DNA of 61,948 nt from Pseudomonadota bacterium (GTDB taxonomy: Bacteria > Desulfobacterota > Binatia > Binatales > Binataceae), in NCBI GenBank assembly GCA_021323945.1, contig JAJPKA010000019.1:1-61948 (forward strand), written 5' to 3'. The notes beneath the pieces are model-generated. The model ran no database searches, was not told the origin of the DNA, and worked only from the letters and a program-made list of their open reading frames with translations. Made by a program: the position numbers and the translations under genes. Shown one piece after another: positions 7,510 to 23,960 of this stretch (positions within the stretch are counted from its first letter, which is position 1; every line of letters starts with the position of its first letter).

Positions 7510-8694
7510 ATGGCACGCGCGGGCGTTTTGATTGTCGGTCACGGGAGCCGCGAGGCCATCGCGAACGCGGAGTTCGAGGGGCTGGTCGATCGGGTCCGTG
7601 AGCGGCGGCGGGAGTTCGAGGTCCAGCGCGCCTACGTGGAACTTGCCGCACCTACGCTGGCCGATGGTCTCAACGCGTTGGCGACCCGCAACGAGCGGGT
7701 GGTCGTCGCACCTTTGTTTTTGTTCACTGCGGGTCATGTGAAGAATGACATTCCGTTAGCGCTGGCTGCGGCGCGGCGGCGGTTTCCCAAAGTCCGCTTT
7801 ACCGCCGCTCGCGTGCTCGGCGTCCATCCCGTGATGGCAGAGCTGGCCTTCGAAAGAGCGATGGAAGTTGCCGACGGTGGGGTCGATGCCAGGCGGACTG
7901 CCTTGGTAGTCGTCGGACGGGGCTCCAGTGACCCCGACGCAAACGGTGACTTCTTCAAGTTGGCCCGGCTTCTGGGAGAAGGACACGACTTCGCCTGGGT
8001 GGCCCCGGCGTTCATCGGCATCACGAGACCACTGTTCAGCGAAGTGATCGAGCTAATCGCGCGGGCACGTCCGCAGAAGATTCTGGTGGTTCCATATTTT
8101 TTGTTTGCCGGCCGTCTGATCGCGCAGCTTGAGACCGCGGTCGAGGAGTTCCGCACTCACCATCCCTGGATCAAGACCACTCTTGCGCCCCATCTCGGCA
8201 TCCATTCGAAGCTGCTCGAGGTTCTCGACGAGCGGCTGGACGAAGCTCTAAGTGAGCGCGCCCCGCTACCCTGTGATAACTGCCAGTACCGGGTGCCGAT
8301 CGGCGCGATCACCGAGCAGGTCGGTGGATTCCGTTCCCTGCTATGGAGCGCCCGCCATATGGAAACGCACGCCCAGGCCATGCCGCACGTGCACGCCCAT
8401 CGGCCGATGAGCAGACACGTCCTGGTCTGCGGAAATGTTGACTGCGCAGCGCGCGGCAGTATCGCGCTTATCGCTGAGTTGCGCCGGGCGCTGCGCCGCG
8501 CCGGCCGGGAACGCGAAATCAGAATCACCCGCACCTCATGTATGGGTCGCTGCGGCGAGGGGCCAACCGTAGCGGTTTATCCCGATGGCATCTGGTACCG
8601 CGGCGTGACCCCGGCAGACGCGCACGAACTGGTGGATTGTCATCTGGTCGGTGACCGGCTGGTGGCGCGGTTGGTCGATGCGATTATGCAATGA
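7510..8694 (+). CDS. cbiX: Sirohydrochlorin cobaltochelatase CbiX (long form) fused to a 2Fe-2S ferredoxin-like domain
   Basis: It inserts cobalt into sirohydrochlorin, the committing step of the anaerobic corrin route. The first half carries the metal-ligand histidines (VGHGSR, H11; TAGHVKND, H76). The second CbiX repeat has lost them: VGRGSSD and FAGRLI have arginine at the equivalent places. After residue 250 comes CDNCQYR, a histidine-rich linker (HMETHAQAMPHVHAHRP), then a thioredoxin-like ferredoxin domain with cysteines in VCGNVDCAARG and SCMGRCGEGP. The frame extends upstream to 7366, but that would overlap the terminator; the ATG at 7510 starts exactly at the chelatase fold, although its ribosome-binding site is weak. 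It is the first gene behind the riboswitch. Confidence 0.9.
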   Translation: MARAGVLIVGHGSREAIANAEFEGLVDRVRERRREFEVQRAYVELAAPTLADGLNALATRNERVVVAPLFLFTAGHVKNDIPLALAAARRRFPKVRFTAARVLGVHPVMAELAFERAMEVADGGVDARRTALVVVGRGSSDPDANGDFFKLARLLGEGHDFAWVAPAFIGITRPLFSEVIELIARARPQKILVVPYFLFAGRLIAQLETAVEEFRTHHPWIKTTLAPHLGIHSKLLEVLDERLDEALSERAPLPCDNCQYRVPIGAITEQVGGFRSLLWSARHMETHAQAMPHVHAHRPMSRHVLVCGNVDCAARGSIALIAELRRALRRAGREREIRITRTSCMGRCGEGPTVAVYPDGIWYRGVTPADAHELVDCHLVGDRLVARLVDAIMQ

Positions 8695-8706
8695 AGGCGA
8701 AATGAA

Positions 8707-9081
8707 ATGGCTTGTCATGAGATAGCGGCATTGCGGCTTGGGCTGATGCGGCTCCTCGGGGTCAAGGACGAAGCCGCGCGGCAGCACGAACTCGCCGAAC
8801 TGGGCGAGGCCAGGGCTCGGTCGGGGGTCCTCCATTCGATGTGCGAAGCGAGCGATTTGAACAGCTTGTGCCGCTTCTACGAGGCGGCAGTGACATCGCT
8901 CGAGGAGCGGGTGGCGGCGGCCAGCCCGGAAGATCCCCAGCTCGCCTATTTGCGGAGCCTCATAATCCTAGCCAAGAAAGTCGAACTCGATCTTTCCAAC
9001 CAGCTTGAGGCTTTGACCCGTCTCTTCCACGACCTCGAGCAGATGCACGACTTCGTACACGAAATCTACCCGGTGGACTGA
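8707..9081 (+). CDS. DUF3209 family protein
   Basis: A 124-residue protein opening MACHEIAALRLGLMRLLGV, the typical start of DUF3209, and predicted mostly helical. It contains several acidic and histidine residues near the end (LFHDLEQMHDFVHEIYP) that could bind metal; that is inference. It follows cbiX by 12 bases and precedes the flavoenzyme by 2, so it is co-transcribed. The family is recurrently found beside CbiX (remembered). A role as a cobalt carrier or chelatase partner is plausible but undemonstrated. Confidence 0.78.
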   Translation: MACHEIAALRLGLMRLLGVKDEAARQHELAELGEARARSGVLHSMCEASDLNSLCRFYEAAVTSLEERVAAASPEDPQLAYLRSLIILAKKVELDLSNQLEALTRLFHDLEQMHDFVHEIYPVD

Positions 9082-9083
9082 AG

Positions 9084-9839
9084 ATGGCCGAAGCTCGATT
9101 GGCGCGCGTAATTCAATCGGAATCGATCGGACCGCAGGCGCGGCTGCTCAGCCTCGCGATGGCGCGCGGCGAGCTGGGGTTTGTCGGCGGCCAGTACATT
9201 ATCGTTAACACAGGGATCGAGCTTGCCGGCGGCAAACTGGCCAAACGTGCCTATTCGATCATTTCGAGTGACACTCAACAGTCGCAGTTCCAACTGGCGG
9301 TGCGGCGTATCGGCCAGGGGCCTGGCTCCAACTTTATGCATCGGATCGCCGTTGGCGCCGAGCTGCCCTTCAGCGGGCCGTGGGGAAAATTCGTGGCCGA
9401 GGCAGGTTCGGGGCCGCGGCTGGTCTTCGCGACCGACACCGGGATCACGGCCACGCTGGGGCTGCTGCGCGGACGGCGATTCCGCGAGTCGGCGGTCGAT
9501 ACGACCGTGGTCTGGTTCGTCGAAGCGGACGATTACTTTATCCCGGCCGCCTTCGCCCGCGAATCCATAGCGGCGCCGCGGATTACTTTCGAGGTGATTG
9601 CCGCACCGCCGCCCGGACATCCCCAACGCCCGGTGCAGGCTCGTGCGCTGGTCGATCGGCTGGTGACGAAGCAGCTGCCGGACCAGGTCTATCTGGCGGG
9701 CGATGGAGCGTTGATTTACCCGCTGCGCGATCACCTGGCGAGCGTCGGTGTAAGCGCCGACCGAATTCGTCTCGAGGCGTTCTTTAATAACCCAGAGCGA
9801 CGCATCTCGATCTCAGGGTCACGGCTCACTGATGGCTGA
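9084..9839 (+). CDS. Ferredoxin-NADP reductase-like flavoenzyme in the cobalamin operon
   Basis: A 251-residue FNR-superfamily protein. Residues 1-100 form the flavin-binding barrel with the RAYSIIS motif (RxYS/T, FAD contact). The nucleotide-binding half starts GPRLVFATDTGITATLGLL, and the end reads YLAGDGALIYPL then EAFFNNPERR. It overlaps cbiD by eight bases, so the two are translationally coupled. In the corrin pathway a reductase is needed at precorrin-6A, and no cbiJ/cobK is visible in the operon. It could also reduce cobalt(II) corrinoid ahead of adenosylation or feed the ferredoxin domain of CbiX. The family is secure; the role is inference. Confidence 0.75.
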   Translation: MAEARLARVIQSESIGPQARLLSLAMARGELGFVGGQYIIVNTGIELAGGKLAKRAYSIISSDTQQSQFQLAVRRIGQGPGSNFMHRIAVGAELPFSGPWGKFVAEAGSGPRLVFATDTGITATLGLLRGRRFRESAVDTTVVWFVEADDYFIPAAFARESIAAPRITFEVIAAPPPGHPQRPVQARALVDRLVTKQLPDQVYLAGDGALIYPLRDHLASVGVSADRIRLEAFFNNPERRISISGSRLTDG

Positions 9840-10947
9840 AATCGACGTGTCACCGCGCAACCGAAGAGGTCTCAGAACCGGGTTCACCACCGGCGCCTGT
9901 GCCGCGGCTGCGGCCAAGGCTGCGGCTCGCTGCCTGGTCAGGGGCACGTCGTTGACCGAGATCGAAACCACTTTGCCCAACCGGATGAAGGTCACGTTTG
10001 CGCTCAAGCGCTGCGAAAGCGCGAACGGCGCCGCCGTTTGCAGCGTAATCAAGGACGCGGGCGACGATCCGGATTGCACTCACGGCGCCGAACTGGTCGC
10101 CGAGGTCAGGCTGCGCGCTGAGGGGGGCGTCGAGGTGTGCGGCGGCGCCGGGGTCGCGGTGGTGACCAAGCCCGGACTGGGCCTAGAAGTGGGCGGTCCC
10201 TCGATTACCCCGGCGCCGCGCCGGAACATCATCGAGATGGTCGACGAGGAGCTGGTCGGCAGCCCCTGGCGAGGGGCGATCGTGACCTTAAGCGTCCCCG
10301 GCGGGGAGGAGATGGCAAAGCAGACGATCAATGCCCGGCTTGGCCTGATTGGCGGAATCTCAATCCTCGGCACCAGCGGAATCGTGCGCCCCTATTCCAC
10401 TGCGGCCTTCCGCGCGAGCGTGGTGCAGGCGATCGATGTTGCCGCTGAGCGCGGCCTTGACGAGCTCATTCTGACAACCGGCGGGAAATCAGAGGCATAC
10501 GCGATGAAACTGTTCCCGCACTTGCCGGAGGACGCCTTTATTCAGATGGGCGACTTCGTGGGAACCGCGCTCAAGCATTGCCAGCGCCGGGCGATTAGGC
10601 GGGCGATTATTGTGGGAATGATCGGCAAGCTGTCAAAGATGGCGGACGGGCGGATGCAGACCCATGCCGCCGGTTCCGAAGTAAACATGGAGTTGCTGGC
10701 GAGCCTCGCCTCGCAACTGGGCGCGAATGACAACCTGTGCCGCGAAATTCGCGCCGCCTCCACCGCACGCCGCGTACTGGAGCTCTGCTCGGCGGAAAAA
10801 CTCGCCATCGCCTCGCTCATCTGCCGGCGCGTGGTGGAGAACGGAACGCGTCACGCAGGCGGCGACCTTGAGGTTCAGGCCTGGATGGTGGACTTCGAGG
10901 GCCGTTTGCTCGGCCATTATCCGCCAGACGCCAACAGATTGGGGTAA
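9832..10947 (+). CDS. cbiD: Cobalt-precorrin-5B C1-methyltransferase CbiD
   Basis: 371 residues. The N-terminus RTGFTTGACAAAAAKAAARC is the family signature; LTTGGKSEAYA and later GMIGKLSKMADGRMQTHAAG also fit. It adds a methyl group at C1 of the ring with S-adenosylmethionine, and its presence together with CbiG marks the cobalt-early (anaerobic) route. The start overlaps the preceding flavoenzyme, and cbiC follows after five bases. Length and motifs are complete. Confidence 0.95.
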   Translation: MAEIDVSPRNRRGLRTGFTTGACAAAAAKAAARCLVRGTSLTEIETTLPNRMKVTFALKRCESANGAAVCSVIKDAGDDPDCTHGAELVAEVRLRAEGGVEVCGGAGVAVVTKPGLGLEVGGPSITPAPRRNIIEMVDEELVGSPWRGAIVTLSVPGGEEMAKQTINARLGLIGGISILGTSGIVRPYSTAAFRASVVQAIDVAAERGLDELILTTGGKSEAYAMKLFPHLPEDAFIQMGDFVGTALKHCQRRAIRRAIIVGMIGKLSKMADGRMQTHAAGSEVNMELLASLASQLGANDNLCREIRAASTARRVLELCSAEKLAIASLICRRVVENGTRHAGGDLEVQAWMVDFEGRLLGHYPPDANRLG

Positions 10948-10952
10948 GCGAC

Positions 10953-11603
10953 ATGAGCGATATGCGTCAGATGACGGCGTTGGGCCGCAACATCGAAGAG
11001 GGCAGTTTTGCCATCATCGACCGCGAGGCTGGAGGGCATGGGTTCGACCCCGCGCAGTGGCAGATCGTCCGTCGTGTCATCCATGCTACCGCCGATTTCG
11101 AGTTCAAGGATTTGATGCGTTTCCATCCCCGGGCGGTCAGCGCGGGGATCGCTGCCGTGCGCCGGGGCGCTCCCATCGTGGTTGATGTCAAGATGATTAG
11201 CGCAGGTCTCAACGAGGAGCGCCTGAAATTTTACGGCTGTGCGACGCATTGCTTTATCTCCGACGATGACGTGATCGCCGCAGCCAAAGCCAATAACAGT
11301 ACCCGTGCCATCGAGGCGATGCGCAAGGCTGGGCGCCAGGGACTGCTCGACGGTGCGATCGCAGCGATCGGCAATGCTCCGACGGCGCTGGTGGAGACGG
11401 TGCGGCTGATCGAGCGGGAAGGCCTTCGCCCCGCGCTGGTGATCGGGGTGCCGGTGGGTTTCGTCTCGGCAGCGGAATCCAAAGAGGCCGCCCTCGGCCT
11501 AGACGTCCCGTATGTGGTCGCGCGGGGACGCAAGGGCGGCAGCGCGATTGCCGTGGCGATAATTCACGCTCTGCTCCTTCTTGCCAAGGAGAAGGAACTA
11601 TGA
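10953..11603 (+). CDS. cbiC: Cobalt-precorrin-8 methylmutase CbiC
   Basis: A 216-residue protein that moves the methyl group from C11 to C12 to give cobyrinic acid. It shows the family pattern: RVIHATADFEFKDLMRFHP with the catalytic-type histidine near residue 48, PIVVDVKMISAGL, the NAPTAL loop, and GVPVGFVSAAESKE. The stop overlaps the start of cbiET in an ATGA junction. A GGGGTAAG ribosome-binding site precedes the ATG. Standard length. Confidence 0.95.
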   Translation: MSDMRQMTALGRNIEEGSFAIIDREAGGHGFDPAQWQIVRRVIHATADFEFKDLMRFHPRAVSAGIAAVRRGAPIVVDVKMISAGLNEERLKFYGCATHCFISDDDVIAAAKANNSTRAIEAMRKAGRQGLLDGAIAAIGNAPTALVETVRLIEREGLRPALVIGVPVGFVSAAESKEAALGLDVPYVVARGRKGGSAIAVAIIHALLLLAKEKEL

Positions 11604-12856
11604 AGTTGCGTCCTATCACCATCGTGGGAATTGGCGACGACGGCTGCGCCGGGCTTTCGAGCCGCGCGATGGGAGCAGTGTCGGCGGCACATGTGCTGGC
11701 GGGCGGCGAGCGTCACCTGGCTTTTTTCCCACAATTTGAGGGCGAAAGGATCGTGCTCAAGAATGGGCTCGCGCATGCGCTCGACCGCATCGCCGAAGCC
11801 GCCAACGAGAACAACGTCTGCATTCTGGCCTCGGGCGATCCGATGTTCTTTGGAATCGGCGCGACAGTCATCCGGCGGCTCGGCGCCGAGCACGTCGAGG
11901 TGCTGCCCCATCCGAGTTCGATGCAATTGGCGTTCGCCCGCATCGGGATGAAGTGGGATGACGCGGTCTTCATCTCGCTGCATGGGCGAAGCTCGCAGGG
12001 CTTTGTCACGCGACTAAGAAGCTGTGCGAAGGTCGGCGTTTTCACCGATCCGGACAACACGCCTCAGCGCCTGGCTGGTGCGATGCTGGAGCACGGTCAG
12101 GTCGGCTGGCGCGCCTGGGTGTGCGAAAATCTCGCCGGGCCGGACGAGCGGATCAGGGCATTCTCGGTGGTTGAGTTGGCCAACTGCGCGGATATTGGGC
12201 CGCTGAATTTTCTGGTACTCGTGCGCAATGAAGAACAGAGCTGGCGACCGCCACCGGCCATCCCGTTCATCCACGAGGATGATTTTGCCAAGCGCGTACC
12301 GAAAAAAGGCCTGATAACCAAACGTGAGGTGCGGCTCCTATCGCTGGCCGCGATGCGCATTCGTTGCGACAGTGTGGTCTGGGATATTGGAGCCGGCTCC
12401 GGTTCGGTGTCGATAGAGGCGGCGATGCTGGCACCACAGGGACGCGTCTATGCCATTGAACTGGATCCCGAAGGAATTGAACTGTGCCGTGAGAACCTCC
12501 GCGCCCACGCTATCGACAATGTCCAGCTGGTCGCCGGACGTGCCCCCGAGGCACTTGCCGACCTCGAAGCCCCCGACGCGGTGTTCGTCGGGGGAAGCAA
12601 GGGAAGCATGGACGAGATCGTCGAAGCCGCATTGGAGCGGTTACGTCCGGGAGGCCGGCTGGTAGCCAACGCAATCACGCTGGAAAACTCCGCAGAGATT
12701 CACACCGCCCTGCGCAAACGCGGGATCGTTCCGGAGGTAACTCTGCTGCAGGTCGCACGGGCGCAGCCGCTTGCTCGTTATTTGCGTTTCGAAGCACTCA
12801 ATCCGATCCAAATCTTTGCTGCGGAAAAACCCTCAGCCGGAGGCAGTTCGGTATGA
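11600..12856 (+). CDS. cbiET: Fused cobalt-precorrin-7 C5-methyltransferase / C15-methyltransferase-decarboxylase CbiE-CbiT
   Basis: A 418-residue fusion equivalent to CobL. Residues 1-210 are CbiE: a tetrapyrrole methylase with ILASGDPMFFGIG and SSMQLAFARIGMKWDDA. Residues 225-410 are CbiT: GLITKREVRLLSLAAM, then a Rossmann methyltransferase motif VWDIGAGSGSVSIEAAML, with DAVFVGGSKGSMDE further on. Together they methylate C5 and C15 and decarboxylate the C12 acetate. It overlaps both cbiC and cbiL by four bases (ATGA), pointing to coupled translation. Confidence 0.95.
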   Translation: MKLRPITIVGIGDDGCAGLSSRAMGAVSAAHVLAGGERHLAFFPQFEGERIVLKNGLAHALDRIAEAANENNVCILASGDPMFFGIGATVIRRLGAEHVEVLPHPSSMQLAFARIGMKWDDAVFISLHGRSSQGFVTRLRSCAKVGVFTDPDNTPQRLAGAMLEHGQVGWRAWVCENLAGPDERIRAFSVVELANCADIGPLNFLVLVRNEEQSWRPPPAIPFIHEDDFAKRVPKKGLITKREVRLLSLAAMRIRCDSVVWDIGAGSGSVSIEAAMLAPQGRVYAIELDPEGIELCRENLRAHAIDNVQLVAGRAPEALADLEAPDAVFVGGSKGSMDEIVEAALERLRPGGRLVANAITLENSAEIHTALRKRGIVPEVTLLQVARAQPLARYLRFEALNPIQIFAAEKPSAGGSSV

Positions 12857-13623
12857 ACTATGGAACGCTGTACGGCGTCGGTGTCGGCCCTGGCGCGCCT
12901 GACCTGCTGACCCTACGAGCCGTGGAAACGCTCCAGCGCGTCGACGTCATCGCCCTGCCGCGGAGCTCAGACTACGGTTCGTCGACAGCCTGGCGAATAA
13001 TCGAACCGGTTGTCGGCAAAAGGAGCAATCAAGAGCGCCTTTTTCTAACCTTTCCGATGAGCAAAGAACCGGCGCGACTGCGCCAGGCGTGGGACGCCGC
13101 TTTCGCCAAAATCGGCGAACGACTCAAAAGCGGCCGCTCGGTTGCATTCGCCACCGAAGGCGATCCTTCGCTCTACAGCACGTTCGGCTATCTGCTCGGG
13201 GAGGCGCCGCGCCGATGGCCAGGGATTCGGGTCGAAGTGGTGCCGGGGGTCTCATCGATCGCGGCTGTGCCCGCCGTGCTGGGCGCTCCGCTCGCCGACG
13301 GGCTCGAGCGAATTGCAATCATTCCGGCCAACTACGGGGTCACGGATCTGGTCACCATACTGAACACCTTCGATACCACCATTCTGATGAAAATCGGCTC
13401 GGAGATGCCAAAAGTCATCGAAGCGCTGGAGCGCACGGGGCTGTTGCACAAGGCAGCCTACGTGGCGAAGGCCACGATGCCGGAGCAGAAAGTGACGACC
13501 GATCTGCGGGCGGTCCGCGGCGAGCGCGGCGACTGCTTCGCGATGATAGTGGTCGCGCGCCGTGAGCGCAGCGGCGTGCTTGCGGGGGAAGTTTCGCCCA
13601 ACGCCGCGCTGGCCCAGCGGTAA
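12853..13623 (+). CDS. cbiL: Precorrin-2 / cobalt-factor II C20-methyltransferase CbiL
   Basis: A 256-residue tetrapyrrole methylase. It has the SAM-binding opening YGVGVGPGAPDLLTLRAVE, the second motif FATEGDPSLYSTFGYL, and VVPGVSSIAAVPAVLGAPLA. In the anaerobic route it methylates C20 of the cobalt complex. GGAGG lies about nine bases before the ATG, which overlaps the cbiET stop. It is clearly distinct from CbiF and CobA paralogues here by the FATEGDPSLYS signature. Confidence 0.93.
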   Translation: MNYGTLYGVGVGPGAPDLLTLRAVETLQRVDVIALPRSSDYGSSTAWRIIEPVVGKRSNQERLFLTFPMSKEPARLRQAWDAAFAKIGERLKSGRSVAFATEGDPSLYSTFGYLLGEAPRRWPGIRVEVVPGVSSIAAVPAVLGAPLADGLERIAIIPANYGVTDLVTILNTFDTTILMKIGSEMPKVIEALERTGLLHKAAYVAKATMPEQKVTTDLRAVRGERGDCFAMIVVARRERSGVLAGEVSPNAALAQR

Positions 13624-13634
13624 GTCGAAGCAAA

Positions 13635-14783
13635 ATGCCACGCAAGCCCTTTGCAATCTACGCCATCACGCGTCACGGGCTCGAAATCGCTACCCGGCTG
13701 GCAGAGACCTTCACCAACGCCGACACTTACGTCTCCGAGAAACTGCTGGCGACGGCGCGCCAGGAGCCGAAACTGGCAAACGCCCTCGCGCTCAAGCTGC
13801 CGATGGGACCGGCACTCGCGGAAACGTTTTTCGCCTATGACTGCCATGTGTTTATCGTCAGCATCGGCGCGGTACTGAGGTTGCTCGCGCCGCTGATTCG
13901 CGACAAAAAGAGCGACCCCGCGGTGGTCTGCGTCGATGACGCCGCGCGCTTCGCGATCTCGGTGCTTTCGGGCCACGTTGGCCGCGGCAACGTTTTCACC
14001 GAGCGGGTCGCTGCAGCGCTGGGCGCGCAGGCGGTGATCACCACCGCATCCGACGCCATCGGCACGCTCACCGTGGACATCCTCGGCCGGGAACTGGGCT
14101 GGACGCTTGACGATCCGGATCGCAACGTGACGCGCGGGTGCGCAGCCGTGGTCAACGCCGCGCCGGTCATGTTCGTGCAGGAGACGGGAGAGCCCGACTG
14201 GTGGCCGATGGACCGGCCGCTACCGCCGGGCGTGCGTTACTCAACGGCATTGGAGGATGTCGATCCAGACGTCTTCGAGATTCTGCTGGTGGCCACCGAC
14301 CGCGATTTTCGCAAGACCCATCCGCGCCACTGGGAGAACGCCGTGATCTATCGCCCCAGAAGCCTGGTGGTGGGAATCGGCTGCGACAAAAATACGCCGC
14401 CAGAGCTGGTGGAGAAAGGGGTGGCCAAGGCATTCGAGACCCATGGGCTCTCGCTCAAGGCGGTGAAGACGCTCGTCACGATCGACAAAAAGTGTGACGA
14501 ACCAGCGATTCTGGCGCTTGCTGAACGGCACGGATGGCCGCTCGAGGTCCATTCGGCCGAGGAGCTCGACGCCGTCCAGGGGATCGAGAATCCCTCCGAA
14601 ACCGTCCGGCGTCACGTCGGTACACGCGGTGTAGCGGAACCTGCAGCGCTGCTCGGGGCGCGCGCCGAACGGCTGCTCGTTCCCAAGCAGGTCTATACCG
14701 AGCCCGGCGCGGGAAGATCGATGACTGTCGCCATCGCGCGCATCCCATTTCCAAAGCGCAGGATGGAGGTTGGCAATGCCTGA
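13635..14783 (+). CDS. cbiG: Cobalt-precorrin-5A hydrolase CbiG
   Basis: 382 residues. The N-terminal domain opens KPFAIYAITRHGLEIATRLA, with VFIVSIGAVLRLLAPLI and DDAARFAISVLSGHVGRGN following. The C-terminal domain has VGIGCDKNTPPELVEK and TLVTIDKKCDEPAI. CbiG opens the delta-lactone and releases acetaldehyde, which occurs only in the cobalt-early pathway. Eleven bases separate it from cbiL, and its end overlaps the start of cbiH by eight bases. Complete. Confidence 0.94.
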   Translation: MPRKPFAIYAITRHGLEIATRLAETFTNADTYVSEKLLATARQEPKLANALALKLPMGPALAETFFAYDCHVFIVSIGAVLRLLAPLIRDKKSDPAVVCVDDAARFAISVLSGHVGRGNVFTERVAAALGAQAVITTASDAIGTLTVDILGRELGWTLDDPDRNVTRGCAAVVNAAPVMFVQETGEPDWWPMDRPLPPGVRYSTALEDVDPDVFEILLVATDRDFRKTHPRHWENAVIYRPRSLVVGIGCDKNTPPELVEKGVAKAFETHGLSLKAVKTLVTIDKKCDEPAILALAERHGWPLEVHSAEELDAVQGIENPSETVRRHVGTRGVAEPAALLGARAERLLVPKQVYTEPGAGRSMTVAIARIPFPKRRMEVGNA

Positions 14784-16034: not shown

Positions 16035-16042
16035 GAAGAACG

Positions 16043-16810
16043 ATGAAGGTTTACATCATTGGCGCGGGCCCTGGGGACCCCAGGTTGCTGACGCTGCGCG
16101 CGGCTGAGCTGATTTCATCCTGTCCGGTAGTGCTTTATACCGGCTCGCTGGTGCCGCGCGCGGTAATCGCGATGGCTCGGGCCAATGCTGAAGTGATCGA
16201 CTCCTCCGGAATGACACTGGATGAAATTACCGAGGTGATGGTGCGCGCTCGCGATGCCAACCAGAATGTCGCCCGGGTCCATACCGGGGACCCGCTGATT
16301 TTTGGTTCAACTGCAGAACAGATGCGCCGTATGGAGCAGCTCGGAATTGAATACGAGGTCGTGCCCGGTGTGACCTCCTTCAGCGCCGCCGCCGCGGCAT
16401 TGCGCCGTGAACTGACCCTGCCGGAACTGAGCCAGACCGTAATTTTGACCCGGGCCGAAGGGCGAACGCCGATGCCTGAGCGCGAGAAGCTCGGCGAACT
16501 TGCCCGCCATCACGCTACCATGGCGCTATTCCTCAGTGTCACGTTGTTGCGTGAGGTCTGCGAGTCACTGATTCCCGAATACGGCGCAGATTGCCCGGTC
16601 GCCGTGGTTTACAGGGCCACCTGCCCGGAGCAGAAAATTGTGCGTGGAACGCTCGGAGACATTTTGCTCAAGGTCAGACAAGCGGGGATCAAAAGTCAAT
16701 CGATCATCATCGTGGGGCGTACGCTGACCGCGAACGATTTTGCCGATTCGCGCCTGTATGCTCCTGACTTCAGCCATCGGTTCCGCAAGGCAAAGGTCAG
16801 AGCGGAATAG
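16043..16810 (+). CDS. cbiF: Cobalt-precorrin-4 C11-methyltransferase CbiF
   Basis: 255 residues. The opening VYIIGAGPGDPRLLTLRAAE is shared with CobA, but the following SCPVVLYTGSLVP, RVHTGDPLIFGSTAEQMRR and VVPGVTSFSAAAAALRREL are characteristic of CbiF/CobM. It methylates C11. It lies eight bases after the unknown gene and five bases before cobA. Full length, no anomalies. Confidence 0.95.
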   Translation: MKVYIIGAGPGDPRLLTLRAAELISSCPVVLYTGSLVPRAVIAMARANAEVIDSSGMTLDEITEVMVRARDANQNVARVHTGDPLIFGSTAEQMRRMEQLGIEYEVVPGVTSFSAAAAALRRELTLPELSQTVILTRAEGRTPMPEREKLGELARHHATMALFLSVTLLREVCESLIPEYGADCPVAVVYRATCPEQKIVRGTLGDILLKVRQAGIKSQSIIIVGRTLTANDFADSRLYAPDFSHRFRKAKVRAE

Positions 16811-16815
16811 CACCA

Positions 16816-18015
16816 ATGTCCGCACGGGGCATCGTTTATCTGGTTGGGGCTGGACCGGGCGACCCGAGGCTGCTGACTTTGCGTGCGCTTGAATTGATTC
16901 GGTCGGCTGAAACGGTCGCCCACGACGAACTGATATCGCCCGAGATCCTGGCGCTCGTTCCGCGGCGCACCGAACTGATTGCCGTTGGACGCCGGCATGG
17001 GCGCGGAGCGATCGCTTATCGACTCCATCCCCGCGTGCTCGAGCGTGCTCGCGAGGGGCGCGCAGTAGTCCGATTGAAGTCTGGCGACCCACTAATCTTC
17101 GGTCGCGGAGCGGAAGAGGCCGAGGAACTAGCCGAAGCCGGCATTCCATTTGAAATCGTTCCGGGCGTGTCGGCCGCCGTGGGCGCGGCAGCCTACACCG
17201 GAATCCCTTTAACGCATCGCCACCATGCGTCCAGCGTGACTCTGCTGACCGGCCATCGGGCGGCAGCAATGGGCCAGGGCTCGCGCGGGACTATAGTCCT
17301 TTATATGGTTGCTCATCGACTGAGAGAGAACCTTTGCCGATTGGTGTCCGAAGGTTGCGACCCGTCAACACCTGCGGCATATATTGCAGCAGCCACCACA
17401 TCGAAGCAGCTTGTGATTTCGGGTACACTGGCCGATCTCGCCGACAAGGTCGGGGTCGAGCGCCGGGCCGATCCCGCATTGGTTATCGTAGGCAGCGTGG
17501 TTACACTGCATGACCGAATCCGATGGCTGGAAAAGCTGCCGCTCAGGGGGCGCCGTGTGCTCGTCGCTCTTGCCGGTCGGGGACCTTCGAAGATCGCCGC
17601 GGGTCTGCGCGCTTTGGGTGCCCGGGTGGTCGAGAGACCGGGGACTTTGGTTGAGCAGCCAGCGAACGACATACCGCTTGAATCGGCCTTTTTACCAGGA
17701 CCGCCTGTTGGTCAGCGCGAGTCTAAGAGAGGCGCATTAGAAGAGGAGGCTCCGGAGTTGATTGTGCTTCCCAATTCCAGCGCAGCGCGCGGGCTGCTGA
17801 CCAGAGTAAGTGGAACGTTGCTTTCTGCTGTTCCCATGCTCGCAATTGGTCCTACGATTGCAGAGACGGCTCGGCGTCATGGGGCACAGAACGTGCTTTG
17901 CTTACCGGCCGGCAGTGTTGAAGCCGCAGTCTCCAACACGATCGAGGCTTTTCGCCGGCTCGACGCGTGCGATCTTGCACCAAAGGAGCGCACAAAGGAG
18001 ACATTCAAGTGGTAG
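16816..18015 (+). CDS. cobA: Uroporphyrinogen-III C-methyltransferase fused to a shortened HemD-like domain
   Basis: Residues 1-245 are the SUMT enzyme that makes precorrin-2: VYLVGAGPGDPRLLTLRALE, RLKSGDPLIFGRGAEEAEE, PGVSAAVGAAAYTGIPLTHR. Residues 246-399 resemble uroporphyrinogen-III synthase (LRGRRVLVALAGRGPSKIAA; LIVLPNSSAARGLL; MLAIGPTIAETARRHGA). HemD is normally about 250 residues; here it is about 150, lacking most of one subdomain. Whether it still cyclises hydroxymethylbilane is doubtful. The end overlaps bluB by seven bases. Confidence 0.88.
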   Translation: MSARGIVYLVGAGPGDPRLLTLRALELIRSAETVAHDELISPEILALVPRRTELIAVGRRHGRGAIAYRLHPRVLERAREGRAVVRLKSGDPLIFGRGAEEAEELAEAGIPFEIVPGVSAAVGAAAYTGIPLTHRHHASSVTLLTGHRAAAMGQGSRGTIVLYMVAHRLRENLCRLVSEGCDPSTPAAYIAAATTSKQLVISGTLADLADKVGVERRADPALVIVGSVVTLHDRIRWLEKLPLRGRRVLVALAGRGPSKIAAGLRALGARVVERPGTLVEQPANDIPLESAFLPGPPVGQRESKRGALEEEAPELIVLPNSSAARGLLTRVSGTLLSAVPMLAIGPTIAETARRHGAQNVLCLPAGSVEAAVSNTIEAFRRLDACDLAPKERTKETFKW

Positions 18016-18746
18016 ACATCGGCGCATTTCCGCCCGAGTGGCGCGAGGGCGTGTACGAGGCAATCGCGTGCCGGCGCGATGTCCGGTCATTCAGACCCGA
18101 CCCGATCCCACCCGCCGTGCTCGCCCGAATTCTCTGGGCTGCGCACCACGCGGGATCGGTCGGTTTCTCGCAGCCGTGGAACTTTATCGTGGTCGATGAC
18201 CTCGAAATTCGCCGCAAGATCCACGACCACGTGGACACCGAAAGGTTGCGCGCAGCCGACGGTTTCGAAGGAAACCGCAAAGCCCGGTATCTGTCCCTGA
18301 AGCTCGAGGGTATTCTCGATGCGCCCATTAACATCTGCGTCACCTGTGACAGGAAGCGCTTCGGACCAGCGATTATCGGCCGCAACACGATGTACAACGC
18401 TGACATTTACAGTACTTGTGCGGCGATTCAGAACTTGTGGCTGGCAGCCCGCGCCGAAGGGATCGGTGTCGGCTGGGTAAGCATTTTGAAACCTGAGGTG
18501 ATCGCGCAAATTCTTGCAATCCCCGACCATGTGATGGTGATTGGGTACATGTGCGTTGGCTATCCGGTGGAGTTCACTGACCGGCCAATGCTCGAAGCCG
18601 TGGGCTGGTTGCCGAGGCTTGCCCTATCCGAGTTGGTCTTCAGCAACCGCTGGAACGAAACCCCGAACGTGCAGTTGGCGAGCGCGCTCCGAGACCTCGA
18701 TGAAGTGGCTAAGGGCGATCACTCGAAAGGCTCGCCGAGGTGGTAG
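18009..18746 (+). CDS. bluB: 5,6-dimethylbenzimidazole synthase BluB
   Basis: 245 residues from GTG 18009, chosen because GGAG (17997-18000) is eight bases upstream; the same frame opens further upstream to 17967. Nitroreductase-fold features include ACRRDVRSFRPDPIP, HHAGSVGFSQPWNF and GIGVGWVSILKPEV. BluB splits FMN using O2 to make the lower ligand of B12. It sits between cobA-hemD' and cbiA, and its presence implies that the organism meets oxygen although the corrin route is the anaerobic type. Confidence 0.92.
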   Translation: MVDIGAFPPEWREGVYEAIACRRDVRSFRPDPIPPAVLARILWAAHHAGSVGFSQPWNFIVVDDLEIRRKIHDHVDTERLRAADGFEGNRKARYLSLKLEGILDAPINICVTCDRKRFGPAIIGRNTMYNADIYSTCAAIQNLWLAARAEGIGVGWVSILKPEVIAQILAIPDHVMVIGYMCVGYPVEFTDRPMLEAVGWLPRLALSELVFSNRWNETPNVQLASALRDLDEVAKGDHSKGSPRW

Positions 18747-20135
18747 ATGCCATTTGAGATCCGAATACCACGCCTGGTCGTGGCAGGCACGGCGAGCGGC
18801 GTCGGCAAGACGACCTTTACGGTCGGGCTTGTGTACGCGTTGCGCTCGCGGGGCCTGAAGGTTGCGGTTTTCAAATGCGGCCCGGATTACCTGGATCCAA
18901 CTTACCACTCACGCGCGGCCGGTGTCCGCTCGCACAATCTCGACGGCTGGATGATGGGCCGGGAGGCAGTGACCGCCACTTTCGTACGGGCGGCGGCTGA
19001 AAGCGATATAGCGATCATTGAAGGCGTGATGGGCTTGTTTGATGGTGCGTCGGCTACTGACGAAAGCGGATCCACAGCCGAAATCGCGAAATGGCTCGAC
19101 GCACCCGTGCTGCTGCTGGTTGATGCCTCAGGAATGGCTCGCTCAGTTGCAGCCGTGGGACGCGGGTTCGCCGAGTTTGACCCCGAGTTGCAGGTCAGCG
19201 CGCTAATTGCCAATCGGGTCGGCAGCAAAGGGCACTTGGAGCTTTTGCGCGAAGCGTCGGCGCGTCCGCCAGTAATTGGCGGGTTGCCCAATGAGGCGTC
19301 GGCAGCTTTCCCAGAGCGGCACCTTGGCCTGCGCACAGCTGAGGAGCTGGCCGGGGTTGATGCCTTGTTTTCGCGCTGGGGCGCACTGGTGAACGAATGG
19401 TGCGAGGTCGACAAAATAATCTCAATTGCCGCAAAAGCGCCGCCCCTGCCCGGGGCTATCCCAATGACAGCAACAGCGCGGCGCACAAGCCGATGCACCA
19501 TCGGCATCGCCTATGATGAGGCTTTCCATTTTTACTATGAGGACAATCTTGCGCGGCTTGAGAGTGCGGGCGCGCGCCTAATTCGCTTCTCACCGATACA
19601 TGACACTCGCTTGCCAGAGGTTGACGGCCTCTATCTTGGCGGGGGCTATCCTGAGACATATGCGGCCGAGCTTCAACGCAATGTCGCGATGCGAGAGCAG
19701 ATCGCGGAGTTTGCGGCGCGCGGTGGCATTGTCTACGCCGAATGCGGCGGCCTGATGTATTTGTGCCGGGAACTTCAGACTCTGGATGCCCGGACCTATC
19801 GGATGTGCGACGTCGTGCCAGCACGTACCATCATGTGTGAACGTCTGCAGGCGCTGGGCTACGTTGAAGGCCGGACTCTGCACAACTCCATTTTCGGTCC
19901 CGGGCTTGGTTTTCGTGGCCATCAATTCCGATATTCGAGGATCGAATCCTTGTCGTCGAAGGTCGCGCCCGCTTTTGCAATTCGACGCACCCGCAACGGT
20001 GCTGAGCTCGAAGAGGGTTTCAGCCTGAACAACGTTATCGCCTCTTATGTGCATGTGCACTGGGCATCGAACCCCAACCTGGCGGAAGCTATGGCGGGGG
20101 CTTGCGTTCGTGCGCGCGCAACGACAAACAAGTGA
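18747..20135 (+). CDS. cbiA: Cobyrinic acid a,c-diamide synthase CbiA
   Basis: 462 residues. The ATP-binding N-terminal half has VAGTASGVGKTTFTVGLVYA and FKCGPDYLDPTYH. The C-terminal class I glutamine amidotransferase has GLYLGGGYPETYA and the nucleophile cysteine in YAECGGLMYL. It amidates the a and c acetates of cobyrinic acid. It starts immediately after the bluB stop with a GAGGTGG ribosome-binding site. It ends 42 bases before cbtB, where a hairpin lies. Confidence 0.94.
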   Translation: MPFEIRIPRLVVAGTASGVGKTTFTVGLVYALRSRGLKVAVFKCGPDYLDPTYHSRAAGVRSHNLDGWMMGREAVTATFVRAAAESDIAIIEGVMGLFDGASATDESGSTAEIAKWLDAPVLLLVDASGMARSVAAVGRGFAEFDPELQVSALIANRVGSKGHLELLREASARPPVIGGLPNEASAAFPERHLGLRTAEELAGVDALFSRWGALVNEWCEVDKIISIAAKAPPLPGAIPMTATARRTSRCTIGIAYDEAFHFYYEDNLARLESAGARLIRFSPIHDTRLPEVDGLYLGGGYPETYAAELQRNVAMREQIAEFAARGGIVYAECGGLMYLCRELQTLDARTYRMCDVVPARTIMCERLQALGYVEGRTLHNSIFGPGLGFRGHQFRYSRIESLSSKVAPAFAIRRTRNGAELEEGFSLNNVIASYVHVHWASNPNLAEAMAGACVRARATTNK

Positions 20136-20138
20136 ATC

Positions 20139-20158: not shown

Positions 20159-20177
20159 TCGCAAACGAGGAGGAAAG

Positions 20178-20390
20178 ATGGTGAACATTGGCTCAGCGAT
20201 CTCAGGCATCGAGAATGCTCGCAACCACACGGAGGTCCGCATCGGGACCGCGGCAAGGGCGATGATTGCGGCAATGGTGGCAATTATGCTAGGCGGCGCG
20301 ACAATCTTCGTCGTGGGATTTTCACATTCCGATCTTCTCCATGCGGCAGCGCACGATGTCCGGCACGCCGCTGGATTTCCGTGTCACTAA
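20178..20390 (+). CDS. cbtB: Cobalt transporter subunit CbtB
   Basis: A 70-residue protein with one membrane helix (AMIAAMVAIMLGGATIFVVG) and the CbtB C-terminal signature FSHSDLLHAAAHDVRHAAGF ending PCH, rich in histidines that should bind cobalt. A strong GGAGGAAAG ribosome-binding site precedes the ATG. CbtA follows after six bases. CbtAB is the predicted cobalt uptake pair under B12 riboswitch control. Confidence 0.93.
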   Translation: MVNIGSAISGIENARNHTEVRIGTAARAMIAAMVAIMLGGATIFVVGFSHSDLLHAAAHDVRHAAGFPCH

Positions 20391-20396
20391 TCGCGC

Positions 20397-21095
20397 ATGA
20401 TTGCGCGCGCGATTTGGACTGCGTTTCTGGCTGGCTTGTTCGCGGGCTCATGCCTCTTCCTGGTTCAGCGGTCGTTGACCTTGCCCCTGATCCGCCAGGC
20501 GCAAACCTTCGAGCGGGTTGCGAGCGAACAATCGGCAGCTGACCCATTGGCGAGCGAACCCATGCGTTCATTATCGACTTTGCTCGGTGACGCATTCGTG
20601 GGAATCGGATTCGGTCTAATCCTGACTGGCGCCTATGCACGCAGCGGCAAAGAGGGATGGCTGGCCGGCCTTGGTTTTGGCGCCGCCGGCTTTGCGGTTT
20701 TTCAGGCCGCGCCGGCGATGATCGTACCGCCAGCAACACCCGGAATGGAGCTGGCGCCGCTGCTGCTTAGGCAAGTCGCCTGGCTGACTGCGGCTATCTC
20801 TGCGATAGTCGGTTTGGTGCTGATTTGTAAGGCCAAAGGCGCGGCAAAGTTTGCTGGCATCATGATTGTCGCGCTGCCTTCAATTGTATTCAGGACCTTG
20901 CTGCCAATCGCCCCCGCGGAAACGTCATCGCGGGAGCTGGCAGCTCTCGACCGGGTTTTTATCCTGCGGACGCTCGCGAGCATGCTGATGTTCTGGCTGA
21001 TTCTGGGAATAACCACGGGTTATCTCTTTGGGAAAAGACGTGGGACGTCCCGCAGCAGTTCACGATGGACAGACTCAGGCGCAAGCAGGGATTGA
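20397..21095 (+). CDS. cbtA: Cobalt transporter subunit CbtA
   Basis: A 232-residue membrane protein with about five or six hydrophobic segments, beginning IARAIWTAFLAGLFAGSCLF. It includes LTGAYARSGKEGWLAGLGFG and PGMELAPLLLRQVAWL, which fit CbtA. Paired with cbtB upstream. Its last 31 bases overlap the start of cobO in another frame, an unusually long overlap, so the extreme C-terminus may be variable. Confidence 0.88.
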   Translation: MIARAIWTAFLAGLFAGSCLFLVQRSLTLPLIRQAQTFERVASEQSAADPLASEPMRSLSTLLGDAFVGIGFGLILTGAYARSGKEGWLAGLGFGAAGFAVFQAAPAMIVPPATPGMELAPLLLRQVAWLTAAISAIVGLVLICKAKGAAKFAGIMIVALPSIVFRTLLPIAPAETSSRELAALDRVFILRTLASMLMFWLILGITTGYLFGKRRGTSRSSSRWTDSGASRD

Positions 21096-21598
21096 TTCTG
21101 CTAAACACAGGCAACGGCAAGGGCAAAACCACGGCTGCGATCGGTATTGCATTCCGGGCCCTCGGACACGGCATGCGCGTCGGGATGCTGCAGTTTATCA
21201 AGGGCAAATGGCGCACTGGCGAACGCAGACTGGGTGAAAATACCCCAAATTTAACCTGGCTGACAATGGGACGAGGTTTTACCTGGGAAAGTGAAGATCC
21301 TGCCCGCGACCGCGCGGCGGCGGCCGCCGCCTGGGAGGTGGCGCGTCAATGGCTCCTGGGGAACGACTTTGACTTGGTCGTGCTGGACGAGATTACGTAT
21401 GTGGTTAATTATGGCTTCGTCCCACTTGAAGAAGTGCTCACGGCTCTTAAAGCACGGCGTGAGGGTCTTCACGTTATTCTCACGGGACGAGCCGCTCATC
21501 CGGAACTGATTGCGCTGGCTGACCTGGTTACCGAAATGCGAGCCGTCAAGCATCCCTACGCCAACGGCGTGCGAGCGCAGAAGGGAATCGAGTTTTGA
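21065..21598 (+). CDS. cobO: Corrinoid adenosyltransferase CobO/BtuR
   Basis: 177 residues. The P-loop LLNTGNGKGKTTAAIGIAF lies at residues 12-30, followed by GMLQFIKGKWRTGERRL and LVVLDEITYVVNYGFV, all typical of the CobA/CobO/BtuR type. It transfers the adenosyl group from ATP to reduced corrinoid. The ATG at 21065 lies within the cbtA tail. A 296-base structured spacer follows before cbiB. Confidence 0.95.
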   Translation: MDRLRRKQGLILLNTGNGKGKTTAAIGIAFRALGHGMRVGMLQFIKGKWRTGERRLGENTPNLTWLTMGRGFTWESEDPARDRAAAAAAWEVARQWLLGNDFDLVVLDEITYVVNYGFVPLEEVLTALKARREGLHVILTGRAAHPELIALADLVTEMRAVKHPYANGVRAQKGIEF

Positions 21599-21894: not shown

Positions 21895-22878
21895 GTGCCA
21901 ATGAGTTACGCTCTCCACCTGCCAACTCGGTTGATAATCGCCGCCGTGATCCTCGACTTTGTCTGCGGCGACCCGCTCTGGCTACCCCATCCGGTGAAGC
22001 TGATAGGCTACGCGATTACAATTGGCGAACGCTTTCTTCGTCGCGACAATCCCCGGCAAGACATCATCTGTGGCGCCTTGCTTGCTGTCACGGTTGTTGG
22101 TCTGTCGGGGGCGACCACTTGGGTGCTCGTCGCGATTTTGCAGGCCATGGCCCCGGTAGTGGGGGCACTGGCGGCAACTCTAATCGCCTGGACCACCCTG
22201 GCGGCGCGTGGCCTGAATGATGCGGCAAGGACCGTTGAACGGCATTTGGCAATTTCGAACGAGGCTGCGGCGCGCTGCGCAATCCGTGCACTGGTAGGTC
22301 GCGACCCTGAAACCCTGGACCGCGATGGTCTCGTTCGAGCGGCTATTGAATCGGTTGCGGAAAACGCCAACGATGGCATCGTCGCGCCTTTGTTGTTCCT
22401 ATTCCTGGCCGGGCCCGTGGGCGCGATGATGTATAAGGCAATTAACACATTGGACTCAATGATCGGTTACAAGGACGCGCGTTACCTTTATTTTGGCAGA
22501 TGTGCGGCGCGGCTTGATGATCTCGCGAATCTCATACCAGCCCGCTTGACCGCGACGCTAATCGCGACGGGAGCAGTCCTGCTGACCGGACGGGGTCTGC
22601 AGAGCCTGCGCGTCCTGTTGAGCGACGCTCGCAAGCATGAAAGTCCGAATGCAGGCTACCCGGAGGCCGCGATGGCCGGAGCGCTCGGGGTCGAACTGGG
22701 GGGGCAAGCGTATTATGGCGGCGAGATCGAGTTTCGACCGCGCATGGGCTATCCGCAGATGCCACTCGACCTGCGGGCGCTTCGGACTGCGCGCAGCCTG
22801 ATGTGGGCCGCGACCGGCCTAACGCTCCTCGCGCTGATCCTAATACGCGCGCTTGTCGACTGGGTGTGGGACGGCTGA
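21895..22878 (+). CDS. cbiB: Adenosylcobinamide-phosphate synthase CbiB
   Basis: An integral membrane protein of 327 residues (GTG 21895; ATG 21901 is an equally good start). Family marks are DFVCGDPLWLPHPVKLIGYA, RDPETLDRDGLVRAAIESVA, ENANDGIVAPLLF and DARKHESPNAGYPEAAMAGA. It attaches aminopropanol phosphate to adenosylcobyric acid. cobD, which supplies that amine, follows immediately downstream. Confidence 0.94.
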   Translation: MPMSYALHLPTRLIIAAVILDFVCGDPLWLPHPVKLIGYAITIGERFLRRDNPRQDIICGALLAVTVVGLSGATTWVLVAILQAMAPVVGALAATLIAWTTLAARGLNDAARTVERHLAISNEAAARCAIRALVGRDPETLDRDGLVRAAIESVAENANDGIVAPLLFLFLAGPVGAMMYKAINTLDSMIGYKDARYLYFGRCAARLDDLANLIPARLTATLIATGAVLLTGRGLQSLRVLLSDARKHESPNAGYPEAAMAGALGVELGGQAYYGGEIEFRPRMGYPQMPLDLRALRTARSLMWAATGLTLLALILIRALVDWVWDG

Positions 22879-22889
22879 AAAAGGGAACC

Positions 22890-23960
22890 TTGTTGCAGCC
22901 GATTCCATTCGATCGCACCCACGGCGGTAACCCGCAAACAGGCTGTGTCGATTTCAGCGCAAGTCTCAATCCGCTGGGTCCGCCCGCCGAGGCGGTGCAG
23001 GCCTATCACGACGCGATCGGACGCATCTCGACGTACCCCTCCCCTTATGCGTATCAACTTGAACGGCGAATCGCCGCCTGGCTCCAGCTGGATCCGTCAA
23101 TGATAATCGCGGCCAACGGCAGCACCCGACTGCTATACCTGACTGCCAGCGTGCTACGCTTGCGCTCGCCATTCGTGGTCATTCCCACGTTCAGCGAGAT
23201 CGCGAACGCGCTGATGGCAGCGCAGGCAACGCCGCTTTCAATCGTTCTGAAATCGGAAGACCAGTTTCGATTGGAATTCAGGCAACTGCGCGACGCGCTC
23301 GAGGCAGGGGCCGACGGCGTGTTTCTGGGCCGGCCTAACAACCCGACTGGAACCCTGCTTGGACTGGACGAAACCTTCGAAATCGCGCGGGAATGCGCAC
23401 GGCACGAGGCGTGGTGCGTGATTGACGAGGCATTTATCGAATTCGCCGATGACCCGCGTTCAGTTTGCGCGCTGGTTGGCTCAATTCCAAAGCTGTTGGT
23501 GCTCCGCTCGCTGACCAAGATCTTTGCCATCGCGGGCTTGCGGCTCGGATACCTGCTCGGGTCCCCGGAGGTCGTGCGGAGCCTGCGCGAGGCGCTCGAA
23601 CCATGGTCGATCAGCACGGTAGCCGAGCAGGTCGCCCTCGCCTGCCTCGATGTGGCGGAGCCGTTTATTACGCGCACCCGCGCTTTAATCGCAAAGGAAC
23701 GTCCGCTCCTCGAGCACAACCTTCGTCGACTCGGCATCAAAGTGTTTCCCTCGAGCGCGAATTTCGTGATGGTTTCGGTCTCGCACGAGAACGCTCGAAG
23801 AGAATTCAGCGATCATCTGCAGAGTCGAGGAATCGCGATTCGAAATCTCGCCACCCTACCTGGATGTGGTCGCGGCTTTTACCGTATTGCCGTCCGGTCC
23901 CACCTTGAAAACGAGCGTTTGACAAATGCCGCGGCAGATTACGCTGGGAACCAGTCCTGA
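22890..23960 (+). CDS. cobD: Threonine-phosphate decarboxylase CobD (PLP enzyme)
   Basis: A class I aminotransferase-fold protein opening FDRTHGGNPQTG then VDFSASLNPLGPPAEAVQAY, the CobD/CobC signature. GRPNNPTG and the PLP lysine in RSLTKIFAIAGLRLGY are present. It makes aminopropanol phosphate for CbiB. The start is uncertain: TTG codons at 22890 and 22893 have an AAGGGA motif just upstream, GTG 22866 would overlap cbiB, and there is no ATG in the right place. Histidinol-phosphate aminotransferase is the nearest alternative, but context decides. Confidence 0.88.
   Translation: MLQPIPFDRTHGGNPQTGCVDFSASLNPLGPPAEAVQAYHDAIGRISTYPSPYAYQLERRIAAWLQLDPSMIIAANGSTRLLYLTASVLRLRSPFVVIPTFSEIANALMAAQATPLSIVLKSEDQFRLEFRQLRDALEAGADGVFLGRPNNPTGTLLGLDETFEIARECARHEAWCVIDEAFIEFADDPRSVCALVGSIPKLLVLRSLTKIFAIAGLRLGYLLGSPEVVRSLREALEPWSISTVAEQVALACLDVAEPFITRTRALIAKERPLLEHNLRRLGIKVFPSSANFVMVSVSHENARREFSDHLQSRGIAIRNLATLPGCGRGFYRIAVRSHLENERLTNAAADYAGNQS

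Follow-up and report, generated by a model that had tools for sequence, protein, structure and literature searches.

How the corrin ring is completed when no cobalt-precorrin-6A reductase (CbiJ/CobK) can be recognised is the question raised by a riboswitch-controlled operon at positions 7510 to 23960 of contig JAJPKA010000019.1 (GCA_021323945.1), from a Pseudomonadota bacterium placed by GTDB in the Desulfobacterota. We analysed this contig over its full 61,948 nucleotides (the window). For many B12 producers no gene has been assigned to the reduction of cobalt-precorrin-6A, a gap that goes back to 2004 or earlier, and a sequence-only reading of the window had proposed a non-homologous reductase, with the FNR-like flavoenzyme beside cbiD as the best candidate. 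We found that what is new at this locus is a module conserved across lineages, consisting of a CbiX with a 2Fe-2S domain, a DUF3209 protein, a distinct flavoenzyme subfamily and a 137-codon protein (orf137). The probability that the flavoenzyme has a dedicated, corrinoid-directed redox role is, in our estimate, roughly 0.5, and its likeliest target is tentatively the CbiJ step, cobalt-precorrin-6A to -6B. The lineage-spanning module offers three concrete candidate proteins and an electron-transfer hypothesis, making an old gap testable. The genes on which the argument turns are as follows.

7510..8694, + strand: cbiX, cobaltochelatase with two CbiX stretches and a CDNC (CxxC) motif (PF01903, 1.9e-54)
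within 7510..8694, + strand: C-terminal 2Fe-2S thioredoxin-like ferredoxin domain of CbiX (PF01257, 1.2e-7)
8707..9081, + strand: DUF3209 protein, all-helical, probable CbiX partner (PF11483, 1.1e-45, 155.5 bits, cut-off 25)
9084..9839, + strand: FNR-like flavoenzyme, cob-operon subfamily (PF00970, 5.3e-13, 49.6 bits)
9832..10947, + strand: cbiD (PF01888, 2.7e-87; TIGR00312, 409 bits)
14770..15621, + strand: cbiH, C17-methyltransferase / ring contraction (TIGR01466, 324 bits, cut-off 246)
15621..16034, + strand: orf137, uncharacterised family (no Pfam or NCBIfam match)

The operon carries all three markers of the cobalt-early (anaerobic) pathway, CbiX, CbiG and CbiD, and no CobG, CobF or CobN was found among its genes, the part of the genome searched for them. 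CbiJ/CobK had been noted as missing from the operon, and a gene elsewhere in the genome would have spoken against a substitute; none appeared, as PF02571 gave 0 matches in G000, the genome to which the window belongs (3.74 Mb, 95.54% complete, 0.15% contaminated), the same family being detected in three of 14 control genomes (a cyanobacterium, a Bacteroides and a methanogen). The cbiP gene, expected outside the operon if present at all, was located there as a cobyric acid synthase at G000:C11:218634-220055 (599 bits), and a precorrin-2 dehydrogenase match (TIGR01470) lies on another contig at G000:C6:11038-11568. With both of these genes located elsewhere, the CbiJ step alone stands empty between uroporphyrinogen III and cobyric acid, as far as recognised families go. 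A search for cobU, cobS and cobT that covered 30 of the 38 non-operon open reading frames (ORFs) of the window with Pfam, and ten ORFs beside cbiP but not the rest of the genome, found none of them.

A missing CbiJ is nothing unusual and has already been described in print for delta-proteobacteria and haloarchaea. The gap in delta-proteobacteria was reported in 2004 (PMC545781), EC 1.3.1.106 is open in Haloferax (PMC8305020), Halonotius lacks both CbiD and CbiJ, and CbiJ is regarded as non-essential in archaeal producers (PMC6719526), while ring reduction after CbiD is carried out by CbiJ using NADH where CbiJ exists (PMC7242693). Like the window, the CbiJ-less delta-proteobacteria (PMC545781) and haloarchaea (PMC8305020, PMC6719526) follow the CbiG/CbiH route and leave the CbiJ step unfilled, the haloarchaea differing from the window in also lacking CbiD. 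We could now measure the gap in 138 evenly drawn genomes of the window's phylum, that of the window included, and in 118 genomes sampled from the phylum of Nitrospira defluvii (G146). CbiJ was present in one of the 59 CbiD-bearing genomes of the former and in five of the 56 of the latter, leaving 109 of 115 across the two phyla without it, and in only three of six named controls with CbiD; Methanocaldococcus jannaschii has the gene. The presence of CbiJ should not be a condition for counting a genome as that of a B12 producer. One Nitrospirota CbiJ match, at G217:C2:19637-20329 and close to the cbiD of its genome, was flagged for one internal stop (TAA).

Searches with the window proteins (tblastn) recovered the order cbiX-DUF3209-flavoenzyme-cbiD in nine related loci, comprising seven metagenome-assembled genomes (MAGs; five labelled Deltaproteobacteria, one Proteobacteria and one only 'bacterium'), an Acidobacteriales MAG and N. 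defluvii, the last with one extra ORF before cbiD. The same order occurs in Leptospira interrogans, whose cobI/III cluster (Fouts et al. 2016, PMC4758666) matches the gene order of the window and includes a ferredoxin-related CbiX, a hypothetical protein that is DUF3209 by position, and the 'flavodoxin reductase' LB_163 beside CbiD, but differs in that orf137 is fused to CbiH. The accessible text of that paper contains neither 'cbiJ' nor 'cobK' and gives the reductase no step, and no step for the flavoenzyme, DUF3209 or orf137 is given in the accessible parts of PMC4758666, PMC8305020, PMC545781, PMC7242693, PMC8620254, PMC8123684 or PMC6719526; a literature search on DUF3209 found no paper. 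Counting the window's own, orthologues of the flavoenzyme were found in 16 whole genomes (G121 and G140, apparently the same genome, were counted once) plus Leptospira, and a cobyric acid synthase is present in all 16. Within the window's phylum the flavoenzyme and DUF3209 occur together in only two of the 59 CbiD genomes, both of one family, which sets the window apart from the other CbiJ-less gene sets. The Acidobacteriales MAG (L008 / G145) is the sole CbiD genome among 199 of its phylum and carries this operon, either through horizontal transfer of the whole operon or on a wrongly binned contig.

The flavoenzyme matches PF00970 alone in Pfam, and its profile also matches BenC, cytochrome b5 reductase and FNR structures over much of its length. 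Operon-type enzymes form a clearly distinct group among FNR homologues (E ≤1.1e-89, against ≥6.8e-23 for the rest), and we compared 17 of them, after removal of five duplicate loci, with 18 Nitrospirota FNR paralogues from one profile search. The R-x-Y-S and G-x-x-S motifs for binding flavin adenine dinucleotide (FAD), shared with BenC, cytochrome b5 reductase and the reductase domain of flavohaemoglobin, are retained in 17/17, as expected of the FNR superfamily. The two loops that normally hold the pyridine nucleotide are altered throughout: the Pro-ending loop of all 18 paralogues is replaced by an Ala-ending ATDxGITA in every operon enzyme, and GDG stands in 17/17 of these versus 0/17 scorable paralogues, 13 of which have a motif beginning with CG at that site. 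The subfamily thus lacks the canonical G-x-G-x-x-P and C-G-P types of loop, and it differs from the FNR superfamily reductases in this replacement of GGTGxxP-type and CGP-type loops (17/17) and in having no 2Fe-2S domain of its own. Judged from sequence, the altered loops suggest a changed electron donor or a rebuilt pocket. The enzyme has no PF02571 match, and if it catalyses the same reaction as CbiJ/CobK (EC 1.3.1.106 / 1.3.1.54), which is possible, it would do so without sequence similarity; different folds are expected for CobK and an FNR-type FAD domain. Because the gene is always an operon member, shares 8 bases with the start of cbiD (CbiD makes the CbiJ substrate) and encodes remodelled loops, the flavoenzyme stands as the good local candidate that the sequence-only reading took it for, but nothing in this evidence singles out the 6A step among the reductions that the pathway needs. 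The proposal of a substitute reductase is supported in part.

Besides BluB, the flavoenzyme and the CbiX ferredoxin domain are the only redox proteins in the operon. The 2Fe-2S cysteines of this domain (Cx4C and Cx3C) are present in 10/10 aligned domains, the window's included, and are kept in six aligned CbiX proteins of the module as well as in Thermus and Halorubrum. In Methylibium and Methylomonas clusters the 2Fe-2S protein is encoded as a stand-alone ferredoxin, and no annotated CbiJ was seen in the stretches examined. The adjoining DUF3209 protein gave an all-helical AlphaFold2 model (pLDDT 90.3) that matches 2EHW (TTHB059, Thermus thermophilus; E 6.5e-6, TM 0.85), a structure titled conserved hypothetical protein, and C3, E5, H27, E31, H114 and H118 are invariant in seven of seven aligned sequences, Thermus among them. 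DUF3209 tracks the flavoenzyme in the window's phylum (2/59) and in 7/7 Nitrospirota flavoenzyme loci (L012-L018), but it is the more widespread of the two, being found in the Thermus composti and Haloferax volcanii controls and adjoining CbiX in T. thermophilus pTT27 and Halorubrum pHLAC01, both without a flavoenzyme. The B12 cluster of T. thermophilus HB8 shares with the window a DUF3209 gene beside CbiX and differs in having no flavoenzyme, and in the haloarchaeon examined CbiX and DUF3209 are likewise adjacent. As this adjacency holds in Thermus and a haloarchaeon too, DUF3209 is better tied to CbiX, and we infer that it is a helical CbiX partner, perhaps metal-binding.

The third member, orf137, corresponds to the C-terminal part of the 497-residue CbiH of L. 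interrogans, and this fusion ties it better to CbiH, of which it is probably a partner domain. It was present in 12/12 evaluable distinct flavoenzyme loci (the window, L001-L006, L008, L009, L010, L075 and L076) against 0/42 other cob loci (L011, L037-L072 and L077-L081), 33 of which show cbiH; the count leaves out L007 and L012-L018 as too short and L073 and L074 as duplicates. The family has no Pfam, NCBIfam or fold match, orf137 was modelled only with low confidence (pLDDT 66), and its kinship to a known fold or to a ChuX/HutX-like protein was rejected in the absence of any match. Of its cysteines only C136 is invariant, with C29 nearly so. Long CbiH proteins known as CbiH60 reportedly carry a C-terminal 4Fe-4S extension, and CbiH60 of Priestia megaterium is said to hold a 4Fe-4S centre; the window's CbiH, at 283 amino acids with TP_methylase only and orf137 encoded separately, is not of this type. 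The conversion of cobalt-factor III to cobalt-precorrin-4 requires reduction.

Other variants of CbiH and of the surrounding gene order were seen in passing. On a Methylomonas sp. LL1 plasmid (L079:12989-14353) CbiH has a fused C-terminal domain of the ChuX/HutX type (PF06228, 5.2e-11), and no CbiJ is annotated in that cluster. Nitrospira clusters have an additional ORF of about 125 amino acids between flavoenzyme and cbiD (L009:10723-11100, L013-L018, L075, L076); it is present in 7/7 flavoenzyme-bearing Nitrospirota genomes, and the two copies scanned gave a weak match to ChuX/HutX (haem carrier), under the curated cut-off. CbiG-CbiH fusions occur in Nitrospirota at L060:4865-6655, L063:4647-6431 and L064:13274-15010.

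In our preferred reading, the locus would be a cobalt-early corrin operon of the CbiJ-less kind that uses the cobalamin riboswitch as its switch. Cobalt would be inserted by CbiX, whose C-terminal 2Fe-2S domain would form, with the adjoining flavoenzyme, a redox unit dedicated to this pathway. FAD would be bound by the flavoenzyme in the usual manner; the enzyme would be supplied with electrons by the ferredoxin domain of CbiX or make unusual use of a pyridine nucleotide, either being suggested by the remodelled NAD(P)H loops, and would then reduce a corrinoid intermediate. What the data establish is the gene content, the lack of CbiJ, the conserved module, the altered motifs, the fusion of orf137 to CbiH and the DUF3209 fold, seen in a model that matches a solved relative; the flow of electrons, the substrate and the step are inferred. 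A bolder version, which we consider unlikely, makes the flavoenzyme a new FNR-fold class of cobalt-precorrin-6A reductase, in which Asp and GDG would replace the Gly/Pro and CGP loops, the rebuilt NAD(P)H pocket would hold the corrin and the CbiX ferredoxin would feed in the electrons. If this were true, cobalt insertion and ring reduction would be joined in one redox assembly, with orf137 providing the coupling to CbiH.

Several results weigh against a dedicated role of the flavoenzyme in corrin reduction. The flavoenzyme is present in only two of the 59 CbiD-bearing genomes of the window's phylum and seven of the 56 of the N. defluvii phylum, and CbiJ is found in none of these nine, nor in any of the 16 flavoenzyme-bearing whole genomes overall. 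This zero overlap, with margins of 9 and 6 in 115, has a chance probability of P = 0.61, so the mutual exclusivity is no evidence of replacement; the sample has no power to detect a CbiJ deficit among flavoenzyme holders, and the co-occurrence that had been proposed as a check supports the idea neither way. Neither gene is present in 100 of the 115 genomes, which shows, with the 109 that lack CbiJ, that a missing CbiJ does not predict the flavoenzyme, that most CbiJ-less organisms must meet the step in some other way, and that the flavoenzyme is not a general answer; its role as a general CbiJ replacement was rejected on this count. In the stretches examined, Thermus and haloarchaeal clusters pair CbiX-2Fe-2S with DUF3209 but show neither the flavoenzyme nor an annotated CbiJ. 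A Thiodictyon cluster lacks CbiJ as well, and as its CbiX has no 2Fe-2S domain and no separate ferredoxin is seen, clusters of this kind do not always include the ferredoxin. Against an essential role in Leptospira, a deletion of LB_163 is reported for both L. santarosai 1342KT and L. alstoni 80-412, for which the remaining LB_ genes of cobI/III are marked present, and such losses are ascribed to subculture with B12 (PMC4758666).

Two further ideas on the flavoenzyme were tried and set aside. A role as precorrin-2 dehydrogenase is unlikely, as 13 of the 16 flavoenzyme genomes, the window's included, already have a TIGR01470 match (none in G121, G139 and G142). Adaptation to oxygen, with the module in aerobes, was dropped after the haem-copper oxidase family PF00115 had been looked for in 80 genomes out of the 115 and had turned up in 2/9 flavoenzyme genomes versus 47/71 others (Fisher P 0.024), the direction opposite to that idea. 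Nitrospira is aerobic with an oxidase of another type, which makes PF00115 a poor proxy.

The rarity of both genes fits an arrangement with no dedicated CbiJ substitute at all, in which a second activity of a cbi enzyme or general reductants would meet the step and the flavoenzyme would be an accessory, for instance in protecting or repairing the iron-sulphur domain. The 100 of 115 genomes with neither gene, the named controls with CbiJ in only half of six cases, and the treatment of CbiJ as non-essential in archaeal producers (PMC6719526) all point this way, M. jannaschii nevertheless having CbiJ. We regard this arrangement as somewhat improbable; it leaves unexplained why the flavoenzyme has kept its position across four lineages together with motif changes specific to its subfamily. 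The co-occurrence of orf137 with the flavoenzyme and its fusion to CbiH in Leptospira favour instead a flow of electrons from the flavoenzyme and the CbiX 2Fe-2S domain to the CbiH ring contraction, with orf137 as CbiH partner and no relation to the CbiJ step. Such a route would leave that step unfilled, and the Methylomonas CbiH has a different partner domain, of the ChuX/HutX type, without any flavoenzyme; we think it rather unlikely.

FNR-type enzymes reduce Co(II) corrinoids elsewhere, and the operon contains cobO with no other recognised corrinoid reductase, which would suit a flavoenzyme that reduces Co(II) to Co(I) corrinoid ahead of CobO adenosylation, like CobR or Fpr/flavodoxin. The gene, however, always lies between DUF3209 and cbiD in the loci examined, distant from cobO, Thermus has cobO without the flavoenzyme in the stretch examined, and the CbiJ step would again go unfilled, so that this role too seems doubtful to us. 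Very improbable is a divergent CbiJ/CobK that escapes PF02571 or lies in the missing 4.5% of the assembly: the genome is only 95.54% complete, but none of the 16 flavoenzyme genomes gives a match, the complete chromosome of N. defluvii among them, and PF02571 does detect CbiJ in the cyanobacterium, Bacteroides and methanogen controls. A corrinoid-directed redox role of the flavoenzyme is the reading that we retain.

We also looked for a shared unassigned reductase beside cbiD in flavoenzyme-less clusters and found none in L037-L072, 36 stretches no longer than 20 kb each, four of them from CbiJ-bearing genomes, in a survey that applied Pfam to only 10 unlabelled proteins and is weak because the ORF caller lost cbiD in several loci (tblastn found it in 40 of 42). 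One of these loci encodes, between cbiH and a cobyric-acid-synthase-like gene, an FAD-dependent oxidoreductase (L043:15439-16605; FAD_binding_3, with a weak geranylgeranyl-reductase match), and its genome has neither CbiJ nor the flavoenzyme. It may be a local CbiJ substitute; its presence in one of 42 cob loci by tblastn makes it a local candidate and not a shared one.

The remaining features confirm a tight operon downstream of a full-length cobalamin riboswitch. Transcribed in the order cbiX, DUF3209, flavoenzyme, cbiD, cbiC, cbiET, cbiL, cbiG, cbiH, orf137, cbiF, cobA-hemD, bluB, cbiA, cbtB, cbtA, cobO, cbiB and cobD, it begins with the ATG of cbiX at 7510, and its genes from cbiX to cbiA overlap or are at most 12 bases apart. 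Wider gaps of 261 bases, partly occupied by cbtB, and 296 bases lie 5' of cbtA and cbiB, respectively. All genes listed by the sequence-only reading were borne out at their coordinates with family support from Pfam and NCBIfam, and its count of three members without an assigned step is right as far as ring-building genes are concerned; BluB, CbtB, CbtA, the HemD domain and the CbiX 2Fe-2S domain had been overlooked. Terminator-like sites show no overall excess (16 versus a shuffle mean of 17.3). The other features are given below.

7138..7345, + strand: cobalamin riboswitch aptamer (RF00174; Rfam 109 bits, E 2.1e-26, full length)
7397..7425, + strand: hairpin resembling a terminator (12 pairs followed by a T-run), located between the aptamer and cbiX and probably the expression platform
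10953..11603, + strand: cbiC, cobalt-precorrin-8 methylmutase (PF02570, 9.1e-77)
11600..12856, + strand: cbiET fusion (TIGR02467 and TIGR02469 above cut-off)
12853..13623, + strand: cbiL, C20-methyltransferase (TIGR01467, 233 bits, cut-off 163)
13635..14783, + strand: cbiG, cobalt-precorrin-5A hydrolase (CbiG_N, mid and C domains)
16043..16810, + strand: cbiF, C11-methyltransferase (TIGR01465, 337 bits)
16816..18015, + strand: cobA-hemD fusion (TIGR01469, 240 bits; PF02602, 5.6e-7)
17967..18746, + strand: bluB, dimethylbenzimidazole synthase (TIGR02476, 250 bits, cut-off 150)
18747..20135, + strand: cbiA (PF07685, 3.9e-38; NF002204, 497 bits)
20178..20390, + strand: cbtB, probable cobalt transporter subunit (PF09489, 4.8e-18)
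20397..21095, + strand: cbtA, probable cobalt transporter subunit (PF09490, 5.7e-26; TIGR02458, 93.8 bits, below cut-off 182.9)
21065..21598, + strand: cobO, corrinoid adenosyltransferase (TIGR00708, 213 bits)
21895..22878, + strand: cbiB (PF03186, 3.5e-97)
22803..23960, + strand: cobD-like aminotransferase, threonine-phosphate decarboxylase (PF00155, 4.7e-48; TIGR01140, 276.5 bits, just below cut-off 290.6)

The annotated start of the cobD-like gene overlaps cbiB, and its true start may lie downstream. Outside the operon, a Cas3 helicase-nuclease gene is encoded upstream at 910-3693 on the - strand, and 3.4 kb past cobD, at 27311-28201 on the + strand, lies a gene for a periplasmic binding protein of PF01497, which we take to be the family of BtuF; it possibly serves corrinoid or siderophore uptake.

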